Shown one piece after another: positions 8,830-41,917 of a DNA stretch of 64,000 nt (the first letter of the stretch is position 1; the number at the start of each line of letters is the position of its first letter). This DNA is from Tilletiopsis washingtonensis (lineage: Eukaryota; Basidiomycota; Exobasidiomycetes; Entylomatales), in assembly GCF_003144115.1 (NCBI RefSeq), contig NW_020312012.1:570754-634753 (forward strand), given 5' to 3'. The notes below the pieces were generated by a model that was given only the letters and a program-made list of their open reading frames with translations, had not been told where the DNA came from and made no database searches. The position numbers and the translations under genes are program-made.

Positions 8830-9966
8830 ATGCCGGTCACTCTCTCGCAACTCTCGGTGCTGGGCACGCTCAGCTTGCAGAACGGCGCCCTTGCCTTCGT
8901 GCTGCATCGGAGCCGGCGTCCCGATGCTTCGGGCGGCGTGTACAGCACCAGCACCGCAGTCCTGCTCGCGGAGGTCGGCAAGGTCATCATCGCCCTTGTG
9001 GCGCTCAAGTTCTTCTCCTCCTCTACGAACACCGTCAAGGGCTACCAGGCGCTGCCGCAAGCGCCGCCGAGTCCGCGAGCCGAGAAGTACTTCGAGCACC
9101 AGTCCGACTCAGTCGCCGAGGTCGAAGCGCCCACAAAGAGTGCAAGCCGGACGCTCGCTCGCATGGCAGTGCCAGCGCTGCTCTACGTGTGCCAGAACCA
9201 CCTGCAGCTCATCGCCGTCTCCTACCTCGGTGAGGCGATCCGACCGCTCGACGTCGCTGTGCTATCCGCTGACTCTTCTGCAGACCCCGCCACCTTCCAG
9301 ATCCTTGCTCAGCTCAAGATCGCCGCAACTGCCCTCTTTGCGATGCTGCTGCAGGGCCGCAACTTCTCCTGCGCACAGCTCAGCGCCCTCGGGTGCCTCA
9401 TGCTTGGTGTCTTCGCCGTGCAAGCCAGTGTCGGTCGCGGTGCCTCCACCGCCTCCGCGGCGGAATGGGCTGCAGTTCTGCGCGGCGTCTCCGCTATCTT
9501 CGTGGCGACGCTGCTCTCGGGCTTCGCCGGCGTGTACCTGGAGGTCACGCTGAAGGACGCATCAAGCGACTTCTGGACGTGCAACCTGCAACTGGCGGCT
9601 CTCAGCCTCATTCCGGCTCTCGTGCCGGTCATCACGGACGCAGCATCGCAAGACACGTGGGCGCCTCTCGATCACTTTGGCGCATGGGCTTGGGCCGCAG
9701 TCACCATGTCGGTCGGCGGAGGTGAGTGCAAGCGCGACTGCCCTGCGTAGCTTCCATCGGCTGACACACACCCTCCGACAGGCCTCCTCGTGTCCTTTGC
9801 CATCAAGAAGGCCGACAGCGTCCTCAAGGGCTTCGCTACTAGCATCTCGGTCGTGCTCAGCGTCATCCTCAGCGTCGCCTTCCTGGGCTCGCAGATCGAT
9901 CTTCTGTTCTTCCTGGGCACTGCCTGCGTCTTGTGCAGCACCATCGCCTACAGCCGGGCGAGCTGA
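8830..9966 (+). CDS. Golgi nucleotide-sugar transporter (SLC35A / UDP-galactose transporter type)
   Basis: Multi-pass antiporter moving nucleotide sugars into the Golgi or ER lumen. Exons 8830-9229, 9284-9721 and 9782-9966 give about 322 residues with roughly eight to ten hydrophobic segments. Family marks include the N-terminal QNGALAFVLHRSR start, AVSYLDPATFQILAQLKI (rebuilt only after removing intron 1), and the C-terminal GGLLVSFAIKKADSVLKGFA block followed by TSISVVLS. UDP-galactose, UDP-GlcNAc and CMP-sialic acid carriers share these motifs, so the substrate is unsettled. Intron 1 is 54 nt, a multiple of three and free of stops, so an unspliced message would encode an 18-residue insertion. 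The gene faces the Stealth gene tail to tail. Confidence 0.93.
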
Positions 9967-17432: not shown

Positions 17433-18759
17433 CTAGGCATTGGACTTTGCGAGGTAGTGCGTGGTGTCGCAATCGCGGATGCGCGCCGCTGCCTGCTCGG
17501 CGGTGAGGTCGCGCTGCGGCTCTCCGAGCATCTCGAATCTGCACAAGAGCATCAGCCTCAGGTCACCGCGCTCAAGCTCTCCACTCACCCGACGAGGAAC
17601 TTGCGCACGGTGGCAGAGCGCAGGAGCGGCGGGTAGAAGTGAATGTGGAAGTGCGCAAAGTCGCCGAGCTCGGCGTCGGCACCCTTGTGCCCTCGCGGTG
17701 CGGGGCGCTGGTGGATGCCCATCGAGTATGGGAACGAGCAGCCGAAGATGTTGTCGAGCCGGCACGCCGTCTCGCCGAGCAGCTCCGCAAGTGCCAACTG
17801 CTCCTCGTCCGTCATGTCCTCGAGCGATGAGATGTGACGCTTGTAGGGTAGCAGCATCGTCTCGAACGGCCAGAGCGCCCAGTACGGCACGACGGTGACA
17901 AAGTGCGCGTTCTGCGCGACAACGCGCGGCGTGCCGGGCGTGTTGAGCTCGAGGTGGGCGTAGGTGAGCAGCAGCGAGGCGCGGCCCTGCTCGTCGAGCG
18001 GTGCGCCGCGCAGCACGTCGGGTGCGGCATTGCGGGCGTCGAGGGCGTAGGCCTGCATGTTGAGCAGCTCGGTGCGCGGCTCCTCGGGCACGTAGTCGAG
18101 CGACCAGATCTGGCCGTGCGGGTGCGGGTTGGAGCAGCCCATGGCCGAGCCCTTGTTCTCGAAGATCTGCACGTACGAGACGAATGGGTTCTCCTGCGGG
18201 ATGGAGAGGTAGAGACGGCGCCAGGCATGCACGATGGGCAGAATGGAGCTGCGCGCCGAGTAGGGCGCCGTGGTGAGCTGCGCGATGGTGAGGTTGTGCT
18301 TGGGATGGAAGCAGAGCACGTAGCAGCGGCCGCGTGCCGGCGTCGAGCGCAGCAGCGGGTGGCTCGATGCTTCGTCGCCCTCGACGGCCTCGGGCTTCAG
18401 CGCCGCATAGTCGTTCTCGAACACCTGGCGCCGGGGAAGTGAGCAGTGGCCGCGAGCACGGCGACGCCCATGTGTGCTCACAAAGGTGCCGTCGTACTGG
18501 TCGTTGCGCCCGCCCGTGGCACGCTCGTTGCCCGGGCAGAGGTAGCACTTGTCGTCGAACGCGGGCAGCTGCGGGCCGTCGCCCTTCTCCTGCGCGCCCT
18601 GCCACGGGCGCTGCGTCCGGTGTGCTGTGGACAGGAGCGGGTTAGTGCGGTGCAGGCAGCGGCGTGCCGGCGCGACGCACGCGAGCAGAGCACGTGGCTG
18701 TTGGTGAGCGGGTTCCAACGGCGGTGCGGGTGCGCGCTGGGGTCGAAGGGTGCGGCCAT
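17433..18759 (-). CDS. GAL7: Galactose-1-phosphate uridylyltransferase
   Basis: Leloir-pathway enzyme exchanging UMP between UDP-glucose and galactose-1-phosphate. Exons 18759-18681, 18624-18482, 18424-17589 and 17538-17433 give 387 residues, the usual fungal length. Visible marks: zinc-binding CYLC at about 53-56, the active-site GCSNPHPHGQIW with the nucleophilic His of HPH at about 175-177, and the FAHFHIHFYPP metal/phosphate motif. The spliced N-terminus reads PHRRWNPLTNSHVLCSPHRT, as in other GalT enzymes, which fixes the start. Neither GAL1 nor GAL10 lies beside it. A (GGT)n microsatellite sits just upstream of the ATG. Confidence 0.97.
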
Positions 18760-29955: not shown

Positions 29956-31931
29956 ATGGCGCCGCCGCTGCCGCCCTCGATCTACTCGCCCTCGTCGGTG
30001 CAGAGCGCGTGCGACGCGCTTGGCCTGCCGCCGCCGCCCGCACACGTCGCCGCCGCACTGGCGGCCGACGTCGAGTACCGCATCCGCGACCTCGTGCAGG
30101 GCGCCGCCGCCTACATGCGCCACGCCAAGCGCAGCCAGCTCACCACTGCCGACGTGGACCGGGCGATGCGCGAGAAGAATGTCGAGGTGAGTGGCCGGCC
30201 TGCGGCGTGTGCGCGGCGCAGTCAAACGGAGCGCTCTAGAGCAGCGCAGGCGCCTTGCGCGTTGGAGCGCCGCAAGCTCCATGAGGCAGACATCGCGATG
30301 CTTGCATCCTCTAGGCTGTCGGCGCATCACTGGCATGCTCTCCGTCTCTTGTGTCTCACGCTGCTGCGCCACACAGCCCATCTACGGCTTCCTCTCGCCG
30401 TCGCGCGGCCACTCCTCCACTTCTGCGCTTGCCTCGCCCTCCTTCCGGCGCGTGCAGACGCCCAGCGGGCCCATGCACGTACTCAACGACGTTGAGATCG
30501 ATCTCGAAACGCTACCGTCGCGCGTTGTGCCCGAGCGCGGCGCGGGGGTCGGGTGGGCCGCGCACTGGCTGGCCATCGAGGGCGTGCAGCCGGCCATCCC
30601 GCAGAACCCGGTGCGCCCCAGCGCCGGCATGCGCCCTGGCGCCTTCGCCGCGCCCGCACCTGCGCAATCGGCCGGCGCAGAGCAGGGCTCGGCCACAGGC
30701 AAGAGCGCCAGCGTCAAGCCGCTCATCAAGCATGTCCTGTCGCGCGAGCTGCAGCTCTACTTTGAGCGCATCGTCTCCAGTCTCCTCGCTGCGCCGCTGC
30801 CGCCGGCGCCCGACACGGCAGCGGCCTCGACCTCTGCAGACGCGCAGTCTGCGCCTACCAACTCGGCCCGCGAGGCGGCGCTTGCGGCACTGAGAGGCGA
30901 CGCCGGCCTGGCGCAGCTGTTGCCTTACCTCGTGCAGTGGGTGGGCGAGCAGACGACGGCACACCTCACCGATGCGCAGGCACTGAGTGTTGTGCTGCGT
31001 GCGGCCGAGGCCCTGCTGCACAACTCGACGTTGGTCATCGAGCCATACGTGAGTACACCCACCGTTGGGCTAAGGCAGCACCGCGACGCGCACTGACCCC
31101 GGCCCCTTCCGTGCCGCAGCTGCATCAACTCCTTCCTTCGCTTCTCTCCGTTCTACTTTCCTCGACACTGCCGGCGTCTCCGCTTCTGCGCACGCACGCC
31201 GCCGCGCTGCTGCGGCACATTGTCGTGCAGCACTCCTCCTCCTATCCGTCACTGCGGCCGCGGCTGCTGCGCACGCTGCGTGCCGCGCTGCAGGCGCGCT
31301 CGACGCCAGCGGGACAGAGCGCTGCGACGAAGACGGGAGCCGTGCTTGGCGTTCGCGGCCTGGGCAAGGAGGCGATCAAGAAGGTGCTCGTGCAACAGGA
31401 CACAATGGAGGCACTAGGCCAGTGGTGCAGCGAGAAGGAAGAGGAGGCTGGGGAGGTCCAACGAGTCGTTTTGGTGAGTCTGCAGTGCCTGAGTGGGGCC
31501 GTGCTCCGACCTCTGCAAGCGACGTTGCGCTGCCAGCGGCCAGGGCAGAGCGTCTCGCCGCAGAGCGCTGCCCTTGCGACCCCGCAGAGCCGCAAAGCCC
31601 AAAGAAGCAAGGTCGCCTTCCTGACTCTCCCCCTTCTCCACAGGAAGCGCTCTCCGACCTTGCACCCAGCTACTCCTCTCGCCGCAGACCCGCCAACGGC
31701 ACCGCATCCTCTGCGCTATCGGCGCGTGTGGGCGACTTTTGGGCGGAGCAGTTGATGCGCGCGGATGCCGCGACCGCGCGGGAAGCGCTTCTTGCACTGC
31801 TGGCGGACGAGACAGAGGAGGCGCGCCACGTCGAGAGTACACACGAGCACCTCGAGACCGAAGGGCAACGCGGCGAGCGGCCACAGGAGCAGGAGGCGGA
31901 TGGAGACGACACGGAGATGGCGCTACTATAG
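29956..31931 (+). CDS. TAF6: TFIID/SAGA subunit TAF6
   Basis: Histone-fold subunit pairing with TAF9 in TFIID and SAGA-type complexes. Exons 29956-30186, 30377-31048, 31120-31473 and 31644-31931 give 514 residues. The histone fold spans about residues 10-77 (SPSSVQSACDALGL to TTADVDRAMREKNVE) and continues across intron 1 into PIYGF, as in all TAF6 proteins. HWLAIEGVQPAIPQNP and LIKHVLSRELQLYFERI are signature strings before the C-terminal HEAT-repeat domain. The tail is acidic and poorly conserved. Introns 1 and 3 (190 and 170 nt) are about three times the local norm. Confidence 0.95.
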
Positions 31932-32035
31932 GAAGCCATGCTCATTGATGCAGTGAAGGCGAGTGATGCGTGATGAAGCGTAGCGTGAGGGCGAGGCTAC
32001 GGACGGCGCCGAGACGGGTTGGAGGGCGCCGAGAG

Positions 32036-35000
32036 CTAGCCAAGGCGCAGCTCCGCGAGCTGCTGCTCGACGGATGCTTCTTGTCCCAGCTCCGGCGACG
32101 GCGCGGCGCTACGCTCGGCCTCGCGCCCTGTGAGCGCCGATCGCAGGCTCTTGGTGGCGCGGTTGACAGGCGGCGGCCGGCGCGGCGTGGCGAGCGGGGC
32201 GATGAGTGCGGGTGCAGCACTACTGCTGCCTGGTGGCGGCGGCGGAGCACGGCGCCGCGACGACGGATTCGGCGAGGCTGTGCCGGAGCCATACGATGGA
32301 GCGGGGCTGGCGCGACCATCGAACTCGTCGTCCGCAGACGGCAGCAGCGCATGCGCTACGGCAGCATCCGAAGGGCTCTGCAGCATTTCGCGCCGGCCGG
32401 CGCGCGTCGCTTCCTCGGCGCTTGCAGCGCGCAGCGCCACCAGAGCTGGGCTGCCAGGGCCTCCGCTACTTGGCAGACCAGAGACGCCGGCACTCCCGCT
32501 CCTCCCGCCGCTGCTGCTGCGCCGGGTGGCCACGAATCCAGCAGCAGGGATGGAGGAGACATCCCAAGCGGGCGGAGCGGGCGGGCGTCGCCTCTGCTGT
32601 GCGCCATTGGCTCCGCTGCCGTTGCCGCGTCCGGCGCGCAGAGCACTGGCCGTGGGCGTAATGTCCTCATCCTGAGCGCCTTCATCGACGTCAGAGGCCG
32701 CACGAACGTGAAGCTTGAGTGCGGGAGACGGCAGAATGTCTGACCGCGTTTGGCGTGGCGCGGAGCCATCGCTTGAACGGGAGCGCTGCATACTCATGCC
32801 GACATCTTCGCTACCCAGCCCTGCAGGCCAGAGCGAGGCGTATGCCTCTGTCGCCTCGTGGGCCAAAGGCGAGCCGAACCTGGGCAACGCGTCGAGTTGG
32901 TGCGCAAGAAAGACCGACTGGCCCGGCGATGAGGCGCCGAACGAGGCCGTCGTGCTGCTTGCACCACTGCTGTCTGCGCGCGACTTTGGTGGGCGTGGCG
33001 GTCCCGGGCCGCGCGAAGTGGAAGAAGGCACATCGATCATGTGGCTGTGCCAGGACGAATGCATGGACGAGGGCGCATCACCTGCATCGTCGACGCCCTC
33101 GGGACTCGCCGGACTGGCCGTGCGCGGCGGTGTGGGCGGCATAGAATGCGACGAAAAGACGCGCCGCGTGGTGCTGGCGCCAGCCTGACCGCGAGCCGAC
33201 GCGGAAGAGCTGGCAGCTGCCTCGTCATCGCGAGATGCGTCCGGCGAGCGAAGATTCGAGAGAGAGTGGACGCGCTTGTCGCGTGTGCGGGGGACGTCCA
33301 GACGCAGGGAGCCTGAGCTCGCCTCTGGCTCTGCAGCCGCAGCAGCTTCCAGCTCGGGCGGTGCCTCCGCGATTGGCGACACGGCGGGCTCGACGAGCAC
33401 GTCAAGAGCGCTGCTGCTGGCGATAGGCGGCACGTGCGGATCCTCCTGCGCACAGGCAATCTCCACGTCGCGCTTCCGGCTTGCGGAGTCTTCCGACGCA
33501 ATCACCTCTTCGCCCCGCTCGATGCGCGTCTCGACCACAATCTCGTGCGTCGGACCGCCCATGATGGGCTGCACCGATGCGACAGCCATGTGCGGCGCGT
33601 CTGCGCCTGCCAACTGGGCGAGTGGAGATGTGGCCGAGGCATCGAGCTCGACGCACCACTCCGCCTTGAGGCAGCGCTCGACGAGGCGCCGGGTCGTAGC
33701 GCTGATGTCGCGCAGATGGGCGTGCGAAAGCAGCCCGAGCAAAAGACGCCGCACCTCGCTGCGCTTGTAGGGATGCGTGAGCAGCTGCGTGCTGGTCAGA
33801 AGGGGATGCAGCACACGAAGATACGTGTGGCGCAGCTGCGAGACGAGGTTCAGCGAGGCGCAATGCACAGGGCCGCCGCGCAGTAGCGCACCGATTCTGA
33901 CTCGTCCGGCAAGTCCGAGAGCTCGCGCACAAAGATGTCGACGAGCACTTTGAGGTCGTTTGTGTAGAAGTAGTGCGCCGTCTCCTTGGTCGTGAAGAGG
34001 AGGTACAGCAGCTTGAGGACGAGCAGCTGCATGCACAGATCCTCGGCGTCGGAGCTCGATGCGCGGTTGAGCATGAAGATGAGATTCTCGCCAAATGTCT
34101 TGCTCTCGTTGAGGCGCGCCTGCAGCACTTGCATGACCAAATTCGTCGGCCGCATGCTTGTCGGCGACGTGCGCCCCGTGCTCAGAGGGGCGCCCGAGGC
34201 GGCGGCCAGCCCGGAAACCATGAACTGCTCGTTCAGCGCGACCTGTGCGTTGCTGCGTCAGCGTTTTGCACGCTCAGCGAAGAGAAAGAGTGGCGCACGA
34301 TGAGCTTGATCAGCTGGTAGTTGAACGCCTCGTCTGCGTTGTGCCGAGTCTCTTCCACCAAGTCGAAGAGATGGTCGATGAACTTGACGTCACACGCACC
34401 TGCGTGGGCGCAGACAGCGCATCGCCGCTTCAGCTCAGATAGCGCAACATCAACGCTGTGCCAGGGCCACTCACGCATGTCTGCCACGTCTAGCCGCTGC
34501 ACCCGGCACACCTCGTACGCCAGGCGTACAGCCTTTTCCCTCAGCGCAATCTGCATGCCGACGTCGCCGCTGGCAGCAGCACTGGCGCCGGCAGCCTCGA
34601 GCCGGCGCTGTGCCTGGCCGGCATAATGTGCAGCCCAGACCTGGTGCACCAGGCGAGGGAGCATGTGTGCGGCGCGCGACTGCAGTGCGCGAAAGACACG
34701 CGCATCGTGTGCGCCGTACTGCAGCAGAATCTCGTAGCTGAGCAGGAGCGTGGGCAGCGTCTTTGCCTGCGTGCGAGTCGCGCATCAGCAGAGTACGCAG
34801 GCAAGTCAGCGGCCGCCAGCAGACGCACATGTCGAGCGATGTCGACGAGCAAGTCGGCAGTGAAGGCGTGGTGCTGCACAAAGAGCGGCGAATCAAAGAA
34901 GCGCGCGACGAGCTGCTCCTGCTCCTGCGGCGTAGAGAGGTGGCGAGCTGAGACCGCAACAGGATGAGCCATGGGTTCAGGGGAGCAGCAATCGTACTGT

Positions 35001-35359
35001 CTGCCGGCTGCAGTGCCAGCGTTGCGCTCGCCCTACTCACCAAAGCCGCCATCGGCGAGCTTCAAGACGCGCGAGACACTGGCGCGCACCTGGTCCTGCC
35101 CGATGGCCTCTTCGGGGTCCGCCCGTTGAGCCCTCGACAAGGACTCTGCATCGCTGCCGTCGGCATTGGTTGTGCGGCGGCGCGGAGGGAGCGGATGCAG
35201 CAGCGCATGTACGGCGCCCCAGAAGGCCGCAGGCGCAGCCGGAGCTGCGCCAGAGCCGGAGCCCGAGCTGGAGGCCGAAGTGGACAAGCCGGACGACAGG
35301 GGTCCTTCAGCGGGCGCCAGAGCAACGAACGAGGCCGCTGAGCTGGAGCGCGCACTCAT
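32036..35359 (-). CDS. LDB17: Actin-patch protein Ldb17 / SPIN90 homologue
   Basis: SPIN90-family protein that binds Arp2/3 and controls endocytic actin patches. Exons 35359-35041, 34947-34829, 34766-34475, 34399-34299, 34242-33892 and 33835-32036 give 993 residues. The leucine-rich core is assembled across five introns: TLPTLLLSYEILLQYG, FNYQLIKLIVALNEQFMVSG, FGENLIFMLNRAS, LQLLVLKLLYLLFTTKET and LRHTYLRVLHPLL. The last exon (600 codons) is a disordered tail with several SH3-ligand stretches such as PPTPPRTASP, PPRPPKS and RRRPPAPPAW, fitting binding to SH3 proteins of the patch. Exon 1 is disordered, and its start is the only Met of that frame, so it is less certain. Confidence 0.9.
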
Positions 35360-36329
35360 CGCCGCTCACGCGGCCAGCTGCAGGTCCTGGCACAGCACGA
35401 GTGCGCCGTAGTCGCTGCGGCGCGGGGCAGGCTCGGCTCGGCTCCGCCGGCGGCGGCGCGCTGCGAGCTGGGCCGCGAGAGGCGAGCAGTGCCGCTGATG
35501 GGAAAGAGGTGTGAAGCGGGCGGCGTATGAGCTGGGACGGCAGCGAGCGAGCGGCTCTCTGCGGCGCTTGGTGGAGGTGGGCGCGCCGGGGAGGATGCGG
35601 GGATCGTTAGGGGCGGGTGCGGCAAGCGAGGGCCGGAACGACGGGCGCAGAGCGGCGCAGGGTACTGGAGGCTGGAGTGCGGGTAGCGTGACGGAGAAGC
35701 GTGCGTACTGGGCTGGAGCGGGACGGCGACGAGGCTGGAGGCGAGAAGGAAGGTGGGCACAGCGATGCGAGGGCTGGGCGAGGCAGGCCACTCCAGGCCA
35801 GCAGGCCCAGCAGGCCGGCGCACGGCTCGCGGCGCGCCTCGAGCTCACGCGAGCTGCATCCTGCCTGGCGCTGCGCGCGTGCAGCCGTGCCTCTCTGTGC
35901 CTGTGCTGCCAAGCCTGGCCGCATGCAGCGGCGCCCTCAATACGCCTGCCACTCAATGCCTCGGCCGCGTTTGTATTGCCTGACCTGGGCCGGCAATACA
36001 GCCTCTGTGTTGCTTGCGCGCTTGCAGCTCCGCGCGCTGAGCTTGCGCACGGCCTTCCGCAGCCTGTCTCCCGACGACGACGACCCACCTGCCGCGCTGC
36101 CTTTTGCTATCCCGCTCGCGCACAGCCTGCCACCCCTCCACAGCGTGCTCGCTGGCTTCGCTCTACTCGCCTGCACCATCCTCCCTCGGCACTCGTCGAA
36201 GCTCCATCTCGCTGAAGCCGCCTCGCTCCACGCCTGGCGCTCTGTGTGGCGCTCTCGCGTGCTCTCGAGCCGCCTCTCCAGCACATCCCGTCCTTCTCTC
36301 GCTGCACCACTCTCTCAAACTGCCTCGCC
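35360..36329. other. Intergenic between divergent LDB17 and BolA genes
   Basis: 970 bp holding two promoters. The 3' 200 bp before the BolA ATG are pyrimidine-rich (ctctcactcgcc-type runs), as expected for its leader. Open frames on both strands are compositional only. Confidence 0.45.
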
Positions 36330-37774
36330 ATGGTCTCTCAGGCACAGCTCGAGCAGGCCATCCGTGCCAAGGTGGAGGGCGTCACGTCGCTGGTGCGTGT
36401 GGCCGGCCCGCTCGGGCCCCGAGCAGGTCCGCGGCCGCGTGCCGCTGCCATGGCGTCAAAGGCTGACCTGGACGACGATACAGGTCGTGTCTGACGTGTC
36501 CGGCGGCTGTGGCCAGGTACGTAGCGCTGGTCGGCGCGCACGGCGTGTGCTGACAGCGGCACGGTCGCTGCGCAGGCGTACGACGTGATCATCGTCTCGC
36601 CCATTTTTGAAGGGTGCGTCTGCTGTGCGCGTGTCACAAGCTCGCCATGCTCACCACGCCGTCTTCCTGCGCTTCAGCCTGCCCACCCTCAAGCGTCACC
36701 GTCTGGTGAACGAGCTCCTCAAGGAGCAGATCGCCGAGCTGCACGCCTTCTCGCAGAAGACCTTCACGCCCAAGGTGCGCCCGTCTGAGTGGCTCCCAGG
36801 GACAGCATGCTGACGACTCGGCCACGATCACAGCAATACGAGGTCAGTCTGTCCATCACGCATGCGTCGCTTCACCCTGTGCCGCGTTTGTGATGCTGGG
36901 CAGGCGAGGCGGCGCATGCCGCGAGCGTCCGGCTCAGCTACAGTCTTTCTTCGTAAAGACTCTGGACGGCTGGCTGACGTGACCCCAGGCGCAGGGAAGC
37001 AAGACGGCCCCGCTCGCTCCGGTGACGCCGCCAGTGTCCGCAGGCTCTCTCTCTGCCACCTCGCCCGCGCCACGCAGCCACCACCGCAGCACGTCGTCCG
37101 TCTCCGTGCCCGAGCTCACGCTCACCACCGACGGCGACACGCTGTCCGGCATGGCCGCGCAGTCGGCCGGCCGTCCGCTCACACCCGGCGCCCAGCCCGG
37201 CGGCACGACGAGCACACTGCAGGACGTCGGCGGCAGCCCTGACGGGCGCTCGAGCCACTCGCCGAGCATCTCCAACCTGCACTTCAACAAGATCAGCAGG
37301 TGCGTCTGGCCCGCTTCCCGCAAACGAACTGCGAATGCTGACGTGTGCCGGCCCCTCTCCCTCCTCTTGGCCTGACAGTGTCGGTGAGTGCCGCCTGCCT
37401 CGCTTCGCACAGCGTCACACAGGCTGAGTGCTCCTGCTGCAGAGTTCTGGGAGCACCTGCGTGCCTTCCTGGAGGGAGAGTTCATGGGCCCGGCTGTCGA
37501 CGCCGGCTCGGCCAGCCCGAACACATCCGGCCGACCTCGCGGCGAGGCAGAGCTCGTCCGGTGCGTCGCGGCATCCTCGCGCTGCTTGCCCCAGCCCGCT
37601 GACACCGGCGTTGTACAGCGTCTTCGAGGAGATGCTCTCGTCGCAGCGTGGCTTCCTGTCAGGTCCGTCATCTGGCCGTGCGTCTCTCGCCCAGCCAGCA
37701 CTGACCCCATCACAGCCAGCGACATCGCTCGCATCCGCGACGGGACGGGCATGACGGGCCAGGGCGGTGTCTGA
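36330..37774 (+). CDS. BolA-domain protein, probably fused to an unknown C-terminal region
   Basis: BolA proteins partner monothiol glutaredoxins in cytosolic or nuclear iron-sulfur signalling. The domain is spliced from exons 36330-36392, 36484-36516, 36576-36613 and 36678-36774, then QYE at 36834-36842. Marks: VVSDVSGGCGQ with the metal-ligand Cys, VIIVSPIFEG, and the invariant His in LKRHRLVNELLKEQIAELHA. A GTCAGT donor after QYE and an acceptor at 36988 join in frame to 36989-37299, then a 5-nt exon 37379-37383, 37443-37560, 37619-37662 and 37716-37774, for about 258 residues. The added part is a Ser/Pro linker plus a short helical piece (VEFWEHLRAFLEGEF, VFEEMLSSQRGFL). Alternative: no splice after QYE, ending at 36893, with a separate downstream gene. 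Confidence 0.72.
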
Positions 37775-38841
37775 CGCGTTTGAATGCACTTGTTCCCCGC
37801 CTCGTCTGTGGTGCCGCGTGTGTCTCTCGCTGCGCCCCTCTGACGCTGCTGCGCGTACCGCATGCTGTTGCACACGTCGCACGATGACATTCGCATCAGG
37901 CGCGGCTGGGCAGCGTATGACACGATTCATGGCCGACGGCGGGAAGGCACTGTCGGTATGAGGCTTGCTGGGCCATGAGTACGCATCGACGGCTCCCCGG
38001 CACCGACCGAGCATGGCTTGCGGGGCGAGTCTGAAGCTCGCAAGTCCTAGCGAGCAGCCGCCAGTCGCACATGGCGTGCGATCTACAGACGCATGCCTAG
38101 CCTTCGAGCGTGCGATGCTTCTGGCGCCGACCGGTCGAGGCGCGGCACGCGCGGCAGGCGCAGAGCATGAAAACTGACCGTATTCGGCACGCAGAAAAGG
38201 CAGGCTTTGGCAGGCGCGCACCGCGCGTTGTAGACGCCCATTATCTGCCGATCGTGCGCGGTCCAACCAGCGCCTTGCCCCCTTCATCGTTCTGCATTCC
38301 GTCTCGAAGCGCATAGTGGAGGCGTCAACGACGCGGCAGAGTCGTCATGAATGCACTGAGGGCCGATTGTGGCCCTAGCTGCGCGGCCGCAGCATCTAGT
38401 CGGTATGCCTGGCGTACTACGCCCAGCGAATGACCTCTATGCGACGCTTCGGCCGTCACGCGATCAGATGGCTCCTTCGGATACTCTGTACACTCCTTCA
38501 GGAGTACTGCTGCAGCAGTGAAGACCGGCGCGACAGAGCAAGCATTGATGCCGAAGGCGCGAGCTGCAGCGCAGACTGTGCTGCCGCAGAGGCAGGGTAT
38601 CGCGCAGCGCAGCTCGCCGGCATGAGTCGGCCCATCTCTCGCTCGCATGGCCGAGGCTCAAGCAGGGGCACACAGGTCTCGGAATGGCCATGTACGACTG
38701 GTATGATGATTAGGACAGGTCTATGTGATCCGGGGTACCAGGACTGCGGACAGCGTTGTCCCTCCGCCCGTGAGGGCGTACGAAGGCACCTGTCGCCGCG
38801 ACGCGCGACCACGTTTGCTTGCGGCGACGCGAAGTGGCTGC
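37775..38841. other. Intergenic between convergent genes, nothing recognised
   Basis: 1067 bp between the end of the BolA-fusion gene and the stop of the disordered-protein gene. Local GC is a little lower than average. Open frames on both strands (37415-38314 minus, 38430-39023 plus) have no motif. No RNA gene seen. Confidence 0.45.
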
Positions 38842-39738
38842 TCAGGGCGACGGCGAAGAGCTTGGCCGCGCATCCGCACCTGCAGCGAGCACCAGGCTCA
38901 GACGGCCACCAGTCCCCTTGCGGCCGGCAGTCTTGCCTGCTGCCTCGCATGCGGCCGACGAGCGCCATGGGTCGACGTTCTCGTCGCCGAGGTCTTCCTC
39001 GCCTGTCGTGTCGTCAGGAGTGAGCGGTGCCGGCAGAGCAGCGGCCGCAGCGATGTCCTCCTCCGTGTCGGGGCGCACCTCCCAGTCGACGTCTGGGTGT
39101 GAGTGTCGTGGTTGCTGGACCTTGGCCTCGCTCGCAGCCAGCTTCAGGGCCTTCTCGCGCGTCGGGCGCTGCGGGCTGGGGCTCGTCTCCCTCGCGCGCG
39201 TCTCCCAAGTCGCGACCCGCTGCGCCTTGCGCGGCAAGGAGGCGAGTGACGGCGACGACTGGGCACGGCGAGCCGTGCGGCTGAGAGAGCCGTCATCTTG
39301 ACGCCGCGCCCCGCCGGACCCGAGCAGTCCGTCTGGGCCTGACCGATGTCCGCTCGGGGATGAAGAGGACTGGCGCTGCGAGGACGCGCCTGGCTGCAGA
39401 CCCGCTGCCGCTGTGTCGATATGAAGACGGTGCGGCGAGTAAGCAGCGTTCTCCGAGCGCGGCGACGACGACGATGCCGGGTGCGTCTCGAGCCGGGCAG
39501 AGCGCTGCTCGCGAGTCCGGCGGTGCGTCGCGCTGAGCAGCAGAGGCGAGGCCGCCGGCCGCTTGCTGGGCGAGCGTGGAGGGCTCAGCGTGCGCTGCAC
39601 CGAGTGAGAGACGCCTGAGGAGGACGCCGAGGCTGACGGCCGCGGCGCTGCGGCTTCTGTGCCGTTGTGCGCATGCGAGGTGTTGGCCGCGTGCTCGAGC
39701 GAGATGGGCGCCAGCGGCTGGCGCAGGCGGCGCGACAT
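38842..39738 (-). CDS. Disordered Ser/Arg-rich protein of unknown function
   Basis: Single frame of 298 residues, start chosen at MSRRLRQPLAPIS because upstream translation loses any protein-like character. The protein is rich in Ser, Arg, Ala and Pro, with many SP/TP sites (for example LSPPRSPSKRP and TSPSPQRP), so phosphorylation by CDK-type kinases is plausible. A conserved-looking acidic motif, EEDLGDENVDPWR, sits near the C-terminus, and RRLRQPL at the N-terminus fits a D-box-like RxxL. A cell-cycle regulator is one guess; I do not recognise a family. The coding call rests on length, start context and phosphosite-type composition. Confidence 0.55.
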   Translation of the reverse strand: MSRRLRQPLAPISLEHAANTSHAHNGTEAAAPRPSASASSSGVSHSVQRTLSPPRSPSKRPAASPLLLSATHRRTREQRSARLETHPASSSSPRSENAAYSPHRLHIDTAAAGLQPGASSQRQSSSSPSGHRSGPDGLLGSGGARRQDDGSLSRTARRAQSSPSLASLPRKAQRVATWETRARETSPSPQRPTREKALKLAASEAKVQQPRHSHPDVDWEVRPDTEEDIAAAAALPAPLTPDDTTGEEDLGDENVDPWRSSAACEAAGKTAGRKGTGGRLSLVLAAGADARPSSSPSP

Positions 39739-40660
39739 GGCGGTGCCGGATGATGATGCAGTCGCTGCGGAAGCCAGCGATGGTGCCTGATGGCGGTGAG
39801 CTCCGCGGCGGCAGAAGGAGCGGGTATGATGGCACCGGGCGCGAGGAGGATGTGGTGCGGAGCGAAGCTGCGGCGCGCGCCGCCAGAGCAACACACCGCG
39901 ACGCGCGACGCGTCCTCGCCGTGCAGCTCCGCCGTGGCCGCCAGAGGTGTGTGGAGGCGCCGGCGCCGCATGCGATGCATAGCATGACTTCGCACTCGCT
40001 CTAGCTGCCATCATCGCTAGCCGCGGGTGCAGTGCTCAGTGTCGTGCTACTGAGCAGCGAGTTCCGCTGCTCACGGTCTGCCGCTGAAACAGGCGCGAGT
40101 CTCGGCGCAGATCTGCCAGCGACCGTGTGGGGCGCGCCGCAGGTCAGCCTGAGTGGACGATCTGCTCCTTCTGCGCGCGTGTGCCGTTGCACGAGCGAGC
40201 GGGCGCCGTACGCAGCAGCTCAGCCTCGTTGGTTCTCACTAGGTGGCCGAGCACCGCAGAGAGCAAGGCGATCTGGGCAGCACGACAGGTGCAGCGACGG
40301 GCTGGCTAGAAGGCAGCGAGCAGGAGGACTGCCTCAGAGTAGCGCCGCGCGCGGCGCGGGATCTGGGCCCGTGCGCGCTGCGCCGCGGCGATGGTGTGCA
40401 GATGCGCTCTGCACCCCGCGCTGCCTGTCGCTCTTCCCGACTCCCACCTCCCGTCGATCAGCCGCACCCTCACCGCTCATAGCCCTCGTCGCTCATCACA
40501 GGCGGTCGCATCCTTCTGCTCACTCGCACTTCATCGCCTGCCTCGCCCACCTCGCGCCGCTGGGTTCACCGCGCCGCTCTTCGCGACCGACGCTCGCTCC
40601 ATCAGGCCAGCGGCTCATTCCCGCCGGCTCAGCCTGCAGCACTCGCGTGTGCGCACAGTC
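39739..40660. other. Intergenic between divergent genes
   Basis: 922 bp with the promoters of the disordered-protein gene and GLC8. A pyrimidine-rich stretch (about 40435-40600) precedes the GLC8 ATG and probably marks its leader. No other feature seen. Confidence 0.45.
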
Positions 40661-41917
40661 ATGGCATCGTCACCACGACACTCGCCGCCGCCCTCGGCGG
40701 CCGCACCCCGTCCGCGCGGCATCCTGAAGAACGCACCGCCAGGCGAGGGTCTGCCCTCGCAGCCTGAGCGCGTCGATGAGCATGGCAACAGGTGAGTGGC
40801 CGTCATGATGCGCCCCCTGCGTACAGCATGTGCGGGCTCTCGACATGCGTGCTGCGGCAGAGGAGATGGCGAGGCACTGTAACGCACGGCCTGTGCCAGC
40901 GCACAGTCCTGCGGTCCTCGCTCGGCACGACTCCGGCACTCCCGCACGCGCAGCCTTGCGTGAGCACGCTTCAAGCGTAGGCTTGTTGCGCAAGGACGAC
41001 CTCACTGTCCATTGATGCTGCCTGCAGACGCTGACCACGCACCAGGCTTGCGTGGGACGAGACGAACCTCACGTTGCACGAGATCGAGCGCGAGAACACG
41101 GCTGCGCGCATGAAGATCGACGAGCCAAAGACGCCTTTCGTACGCGCTGGCAGCTTTGGTTCTGACGGCGACGAGGTCGGCGGTGAGTGGCGCGAACACC
41201 TGACTGCGACCCGACACTCTGACGCCCGAGACAGGCTTCGATCTCGACGGCGATGCCGGCAAGCAGGGCGACAGCTCTTCGTCCGTTCAGGACGCGCCGG
41301 CCGCGCGTCGCAGCAGCTTCGCTGAGCAGCTCGCTGCGAACACTGCCTCGAACGCGGCGCTCGGTCGCGCTGCCAGCAGCGGCAGCGATGCTCCGTCTGC
41401 ACGCACTACGTCGCGGTCGCCCAGCTTCACGCTGCCGCCGGGCAGTAGGCGGAGCTCGAGTGCGAGCAACCGCGCCGAGGGACGCGGCGCCGTGCGCGAC
41501 GAGATGGCCGCGCGCGACCGCATGGACGTCGACGGCGAGGAGGCCATGGACGACGATGACGACGACGAGGAGCTCGACCCCGAGGGTCAGTCGCCGCTGT
41601 GCCTCCCACGCTGCCGCAGGCTGACGTCGGCCCATGACAGAGCGAGCGCAGCGCCAGGCCTTTGCGCAGAAGCGCAACCAGGTGTGTGGCTCGGCTGCCT
41701 CTGCGCGCTCCAGACGTTGCTGACGCCTCTCACAGCACTATGGCAACGAAGCCGAGGCGTGAGTCATTCAGTCAGCACGCTGTCGGCTCTCGGCCAGTCT
41801 GACGCCTGTCCCGCCAGCATGAAGGTCGCAGCTGCGCTGGCAAGCCGTGACGAGGAGGACGAGGACAGCGACGATGACGATGACGACGTCGGCGCAGGGC
41901 CAAACGGGCAGGTCTGA
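40661..41917 (+). CDS. GLC8: Protein phosphatase inhibitor 2 (Glc8-like)
   Basis: Modulator of type 1 protein phosphatase (Glc7). Exons 40661-40791, 41046-41182, 41235-41585, 41641-41681, 41736-41758 and 41818-41917 give 260 residues. The three PP1-contact elements are present in order: RGILKN near residue 20, LAWDETNLTLHEIERE then MKIDEPKTPFVR (with the GSK3-site Thr in KTP) at about 44-77, and the C-terminal helix ERAQRQAFAQKRNQHYGNEA. The tail is acidic. Intron 1 is 254 nt, about four times the local norm, and exon 5 is only 23 nt. One donor is GTCAGT, which shows that this variant is used in this genome. Confidence 0.93.

Follow-up and report, generated by a model that had tools for sequence, protein, structure and literature searches.

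Within the 64,000-nucleotide stretch of Tilletiopsis washingtonensis DNA that we analyzed (here called the window), positions 36330 to 37774 of the plus strand are best read as one spliced gene for a cytosolic or nuclear BolA2 protein (Bol2/Fra2) with a C-terminal tail of ~178 residues. We give this reading, in which the BolA part would act as it does in yeasts and the tail would serve as a tether, a probability of about three in four. That the locus holds one spliced gene at all, counting also the case in which intron 5 is sometimes retained, is highly probable, and a single gene extended at its C terminus should be regarded as likely rather than proven.

The window lies at the end of contig 15 and has a G+C content of 68%; the genome comprises 18.7 million bases in 32 contigs. 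The gene has 10 exons, separated by introns of 53 to 146 nt that all run from GT to AG, and the joined exons form 777 nt in one frame, encoding 258 residues and a stop. The features of the locus, with the basis for each where it applies, are as follows.

36330..36392, plus strand: exon 1, start codon and BolA residues 1-21 (frame reading and gene finder)
36484..36516, plus strand: exon 2, Cys30 (GGCG), a likely [2Fe-2S] ligand (alignment, and spacing compared with PMC10704371, in excerpt)
36576..36613, plus strand: exon 3, BolA core (frame reading and gene finder)
36678..36774, plus strand: exon 4, BolA core up to TFTPK; contains the likely [2Fe-2S] ligand His67 (alignment and gene finder)
36834..36842, plus strand: exon 5, 9 nt, QYE, the end of the BolA domain at the TP-x-Q-W/Y position (alignments and gene finder)
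36843..36988, plus strand: intron 5, 146 nt; if retained, BolA2 stops at 36891-36893 after 96 residues
36989..37299, plus strand: exon 6, Ser/Pro/Thr/Gly-rich linker, acceptor at 36989 or 36995 (frame reading and gene finder)
37151..37153, plus strand: ATG, the sole ATG between 36843 and 37200 in the frame of the tail that is open into the tail, and the likeliest start of a separate gene
37379..37383, plus strand: exon 7, 5-nt microexon TGTCG (frame reading and gene finder)
37443..37560, plus strand: exon 8, EFWEHLRAFLEGEF segment, short helix predicted (gene finder and fold model)
37619..37662, plus strand: exon 9, VFEEMLSSQRGFLS segment, amphipathic (frame reading and gene finder)
37716..37774, plus strand: exon 10, C terminus and stop codon (frame reading and gene finder)

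An earlier note on this DNA had proposed a splice path from the BolA domain into the tail through a 9-nt and a 5-nt exon, ending at the stop at 37774, and we found this path to be present and in frame. The 5-nt exon TGTCG, to which it had ascribed a frame repair, is among the exons that read in frame. Omission of this exon from the gene model cost 18.8 nats; loss of the donor at 37300 cost 27.6 nats. One correction concerns the acceptor of exon 6, which is uncertain by 6 nt (36989 or 36995) between gene-finder runs. Very short exons are known in a basidiomycete, the P450 genes of Phanerochaete having exons of 6 bp (PMC1184071, in excerpt). When the finder was trained without the window, the 182 to 185 internal exons included only 1 to 3 with a length of at most 9 nt, and the run with window positions 30001-40000 held out gave 2 of 228. 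A 5-nt exon is rare, and two such short exons (exons 5 and 7) in one gene are unusual because internal exons of this size were so few in training, which weighs against the one-gene reading.

The gene structure was obtained with a two-strand gene finder written for this task and trained on this genome. In a first run, the splice seeds came partly from the BolA2 gene itself; this run returned the exons of the earlier note but was biased and was replaced. A second, overfitted run also fused the BolA domain to the tail but extended the gene to 18 exons ending at 38399; it was discarded, having drifted into many tiny exons because it lacked an exon-length term. The final training used 19 of the 20 loci that we fetched, all outside the window (L023, with at least 200 N, was dropped), and the finder trained in this way, without any sequence from the window, recovered 10 of 10 exons exactly under all four gene penalties (−2, −6, −12, and −20). 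A self-trained run with window positions 30001-40000 held out agreed on the gene but for the start of exon 6, which it placed at 36995 and not at 36989. Our conclusions rest on these two runs. The single fused gene was the best-scoring reading in every run, including the discarded one, and the exons of the note appeared in three of the runs, one of them with exon 6 shifted by 6 nt. The interpretation put forward in the note is partly supported. Three of four neighboring proteins predicted by the finder matched Pfam families (TAF6, SPIN90/Ldb17, and phosphatase inhibitor 2) and one matched none, which supports the finder in general.

In a shuffle control, the locus was kept through exon 5 and the following 1158 nt were replaced. 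The real sequence scored 80.2, against a mean of 23.3 and a maximum of 40.1 for 200 dinucleotide shuffles, none of which reached it. Likewise, none of 64 finder-called noncoding stretches reached that score when used as the replacement (maximum, 51.0), these being pieces taken in both orientations and so not all independent. For the tail, the proportion of G+C at the third codon position was 0.866; for the BolA part, it was 0.863. The sequence observation on which the earlier note was built is correct, and it stands well above chance.

Residues 1-80 form a BolA2/Fra2 domain, as judged by Pfam and by a PDB sequence search. The Pfam BolA family (PF01722) matched residues 28-78 with 54.4 bits, compared with a curated cutoff of 25.7 (E value, 1.6e-14). 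The top three PDB matches, with E values of 2.7e-15 to 8.7e-15, were named BolA2 or BolA-like protein 2, the best being Arabidopsis BolA2 (2.7e-15), and weaker matches were found to BolA-like protein 3 (1.9e-11) and BolA-like protein 1 (3.3e-5). By sequence, the domain is of the BolA2 class. The alignment with Arabidopsis BolA2 begins at residue 1, which suggests that the protein lacks a long leader. In the PDB alignments, the QYE encoded by the 9-nt exon sits where BolA2 chains show TP-x-Q-W, and because of this fit the exon is backed by homology, independently of the splice model. BolA2 chains usually end shortly past TP-x-Q-Y/W, which is a usual feature of such chains and not their defining function; in the preferred model ~178 more residues follow.

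Cys30 and His67 lie 37 residues apart in the 258-residue protein. The same distance separates Cys29 and His66 of Schizosaccharomyces pombe Fra2 and Cys66 and His103 of the Saccharomyces cerevisiae protein, residues described as binding the shared [2Fe-2S] cluster or as important to it (PMC10704371, in excerpt), and by this spacing Cys30 and His67 are likely to be [2Fe-2S] ligands here. In S. pombe, Bol2/Fra2 shares its cluster with Grx3/4 and conveys iron status to transcription factors, as described in the same excerpt (PMC10704371). Iron homeostasis in Cryptococcus neoformans, a basidiomycete, is under the control of Grx4; a BolA-like protein had been predicted there but was unstudied at that time, according to the excerpted account (PMC6282196). 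A CGFS glutaredoxin exon is present on contig 14 of the Tilletiopsis genome, where the glutaredoxin domain alone was matched by Pfam (69.1 bits). We infer that, most likely, the BolA part and a CGFS glutaredoxin of the Grx3/4 kind would have one [2Fe-2S] cluster between them, bound through Cys30 and His67, and that the Bol2-Grx complex would pass cellular iron status to iron-responsive transcription factors. The extension departs from the domain directly after TP-x-Q-Y, and its most likely role would be that of a flexible tether by which the Bol2-Grx complex docks onto a partner.

Several related genes were seen elsewhere in the genome. Before the glutaredoxin exon on contig 14 lies a thioredoxin-like stretch, recognized by eye and without a Pfam match. 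Contig 10 carries the second CGFS glutaredoxin (L007, 328200-328298), whose N-terminal stretch is long; judged by eye, we take it to be of the mitochondrial Grx5 type. A second, separate BolA gene lies on contig 9 (L001, 486733-486936) and is, again by eye, presumably of the BolA1 type. An exon-wise genome search, which can miss split genes, found no third BolA of the Bol3 type.

The tail consists of a linker followed by two short amphipathic segments. In the ~100 residues encoded by exon 6, Ser, Pro, Thr, and Gly abound, and from its appearance this linker looks disordered. Within the last ~75 residues lie the amphipathic stretches EFWEHLRAFLE and ELVRVFEEMLS, with hydrophobic moments of 0.57 and 0.69, respectively. 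A fold model of the 38 residues of exon 8, made without an alignment and with a mean pLDDT of 66.6 overall, placed a single 11-residue helix at residues 2-12; the first ten residues average 90 and those beyond range from 55 to 64, so that most of the model is of low confidence. Together, the amphipathic stretches and this fold lend weak support to a helical module in the tail.

Pfam gave no family for the 178-residue tail up to an E value of 10, a search in which the HMMER filters drop most weak matches, and the PDB gave no chain for its last 88 residues up to the same E value. In the organism's own genome, those 88 residues matched only the locus itself, with no second copy. Scans in which only close relatives are detectable found no relative of the last 88 residues among 428 pattern matches in the prokaryotic GTDB contigs and none of the whole protein among 25 pattern matches in the viral IMG/VR contigs; these viral and prokaryotic negatives say little about fungi. 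As far as sequence searches of Pfam, the PDB, GTDB, and IMG/VR go, the tail matches no family, which does not imply that it is new. Among the literature matches listed for BolA or Fra2 with basidiomycete, Cryptococcus, Ustilago, or domain fusion, no title or opening of an abstract reports a BolA2 with a long C-terminal tail.

A split into two tandem genes is also grammatical: in its best version, a 96-residue BolA2 ends at 36893, within intron 5, and a second, 124-residue gene restarts at ATG 37151. This tandem pair trailed the single gene by just 4.0 to 4.4 nats before the gene penalty, and splice grammar alone is therefore insufficient against two genes. Loss of the donor at 36843 cost only 5.9 nats and still left one gene, because exon 4 then joins exon 6 in frame. 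The claim in the earlier note that there is no room for a promoter outside the BolA gene proved weaker than it was put, since with intron 5 retained 257 nt lie between 36893 and ATG 37151. The start context of this ATG is good (67th percentile of 86 predicted starts), but the 80 nt before it rank only at the 30th percentile for pyrimidine and the 14th for T among the same starts; for the DNA before 36330, these values are the 91st and 88th percentiles. Out-of-frame ATGs at 36862 and 36916 open frames that extend beyond 37151 and terminate at 37242; a message starting ahead of either position would encounter them. The in-frame ATG at 36893 runs into a stop at 36982. Moreover, two genes would leave 36989-37150 coding-like yet without a start: these 162 nt scored +7.0 nats as coding in the frame of the tail and −14.0 and −28.8 in the other frames, a score that 33 of 3625 open noncoding frames attain and that is at the low end for coding DNA, since 7% of the coding stretches used in training fell as low. 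Of 14 cases of predicted tandem neighbors in the training chunks, 1 had the two genes separated by at most 257 nt. We consider the tandem pair unlikely.

The single gene might also yield two products. If intron 5 were retained, translation would end in frame shortly past the intact BolA domain and give an ordinary BolA2 of 96 residues, and splicing would then set the share of protein that carries the tail. Two proteins arise from one fungal gene by alternative splicing at SKI7/HBS1 (PMC3597508, in excerpt). At the 88th percentile of 310 introns, intron 5 is on the long side, and its donor is below the median (23rd percentile), but its splice scores lie within the ordinary range; the donors of introns 2 and 9 are weaker, and therefore nothing singles out intron 5 as regulated. 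It scored as noncoding in all three frames, and a transcript retaining it may be just a substrate for nonsense-mediated decay. On the sequence, such a switch seems about as improbable as the tandem pair. A little more doubtful still is that the locus holds one gene whose far C terminus has been mismodeled, with other small exons or another end, a case that may overlap the readings above. Exon 10 ranks last among the ten in codon score (−2.5, negative as coding), the overfitted run placed other small exons in the tail on its way to 38399, and the exon 6 acceptor moved by 6 nt between runs; against this, both later runs concurred on all exons after exon 6.

The surroundings of the gene were annotated from the same models. 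A TAF6 gene with Pfam TAF and TAF6_C matches lies at 29956-31931 on the plus strand, followed at 32036-35859 on the minus strand by a SPIN90/Ldb17 gene (Pfam SPIN90_LRD) that is divergent from the BolA2 gene and whose 5′ exons are weak in the model. Downstream, the trained model placed no gene in the ~2.9 kb from 37775 to 40660, where early finder runs had put minus-strand exons near 38880-39738; past this stretch lies a phosphatase inhibitor 2 gene (IPP-2) at 40661-41917. Elsewhere in the window, two genes lie 7.5 kb apart, at 17433-18759 on the minus strand and 8830-9966 on the plus strand. Judged by eye from motifs alone, we take the former to be galactose-1-phosphate uridylyltransferase-like and the latter nucleotide-sugar-transporter-like.

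Returning to the reading that we prefer, a single spliced gene for a tailed BolA2, we note that BolA2 proteins of the cytosol are small and occur widely. To our knowledge, how the Bol2-glutaredoxin complex chooses its targets is unsettled. A tailed BolA2 would offer a physical handle on that choice, and the natural test is the function of the domain without the tail. It is conceivable, if improbable, that in one fungal lineage a cytosolic BolA2 gained a C-terminal interaction module that physically links the Bol2-Grx3/4 cluster complex to a client, with splicing of intron 5 tuning the tailed share; if true, iron-sulfur signaling would have a new architecture here, together with an arm tunable by splicing. 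In practical terms, a gene model that ends with the BolA domain could overlook the 5-nt exon and everything downstream of it.

Among known systems, Bol3 of Aspergillus fumigatus is dual localized, closer to Bol2, and made as more than one product (PMC11285713, in excerpt). Its forms differ by an N-terminal targeting sequence through alternative translation starts, according to that excerpt (PMC11285713), whereas any second form here would differ C-terminally, through splicing. SKI7/HBS1, one fungal gene giving two proteins by splicing, serves as a model for retention of intron 5, but its proteins are unrelated to ours and its two products are documented by transcripts, where here a second product is merely possible (PMC3597508, in excerpt). 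The plant SufE-BolA chain (PDB 4pui, a weak match) likewise has a BolA domain, in a chain named for another function; in the protein described here, the domain is joined to an unmatched tail. The name of 4pui is all that the search gave, and we take it to mean that BolA is joined there to an established enzyme of sulfur transfer. With Bol2/Fra2 of S. pombe and S. cerevisiae, the protein shares a BolA2-class domain, a Cys and a His 37 residues apart, and a CGFS glutaredoxin gene in the genome. The three PDB chains named BolA2 or BolA-like protein 2 are 92 to 93 residues long, being constructs that were perhaps trimmed, and we know of no such tail in yeast Bol2/Fra2. In the preferred model, the Tilletiopsis protein continues for ~178 residues past the domain.
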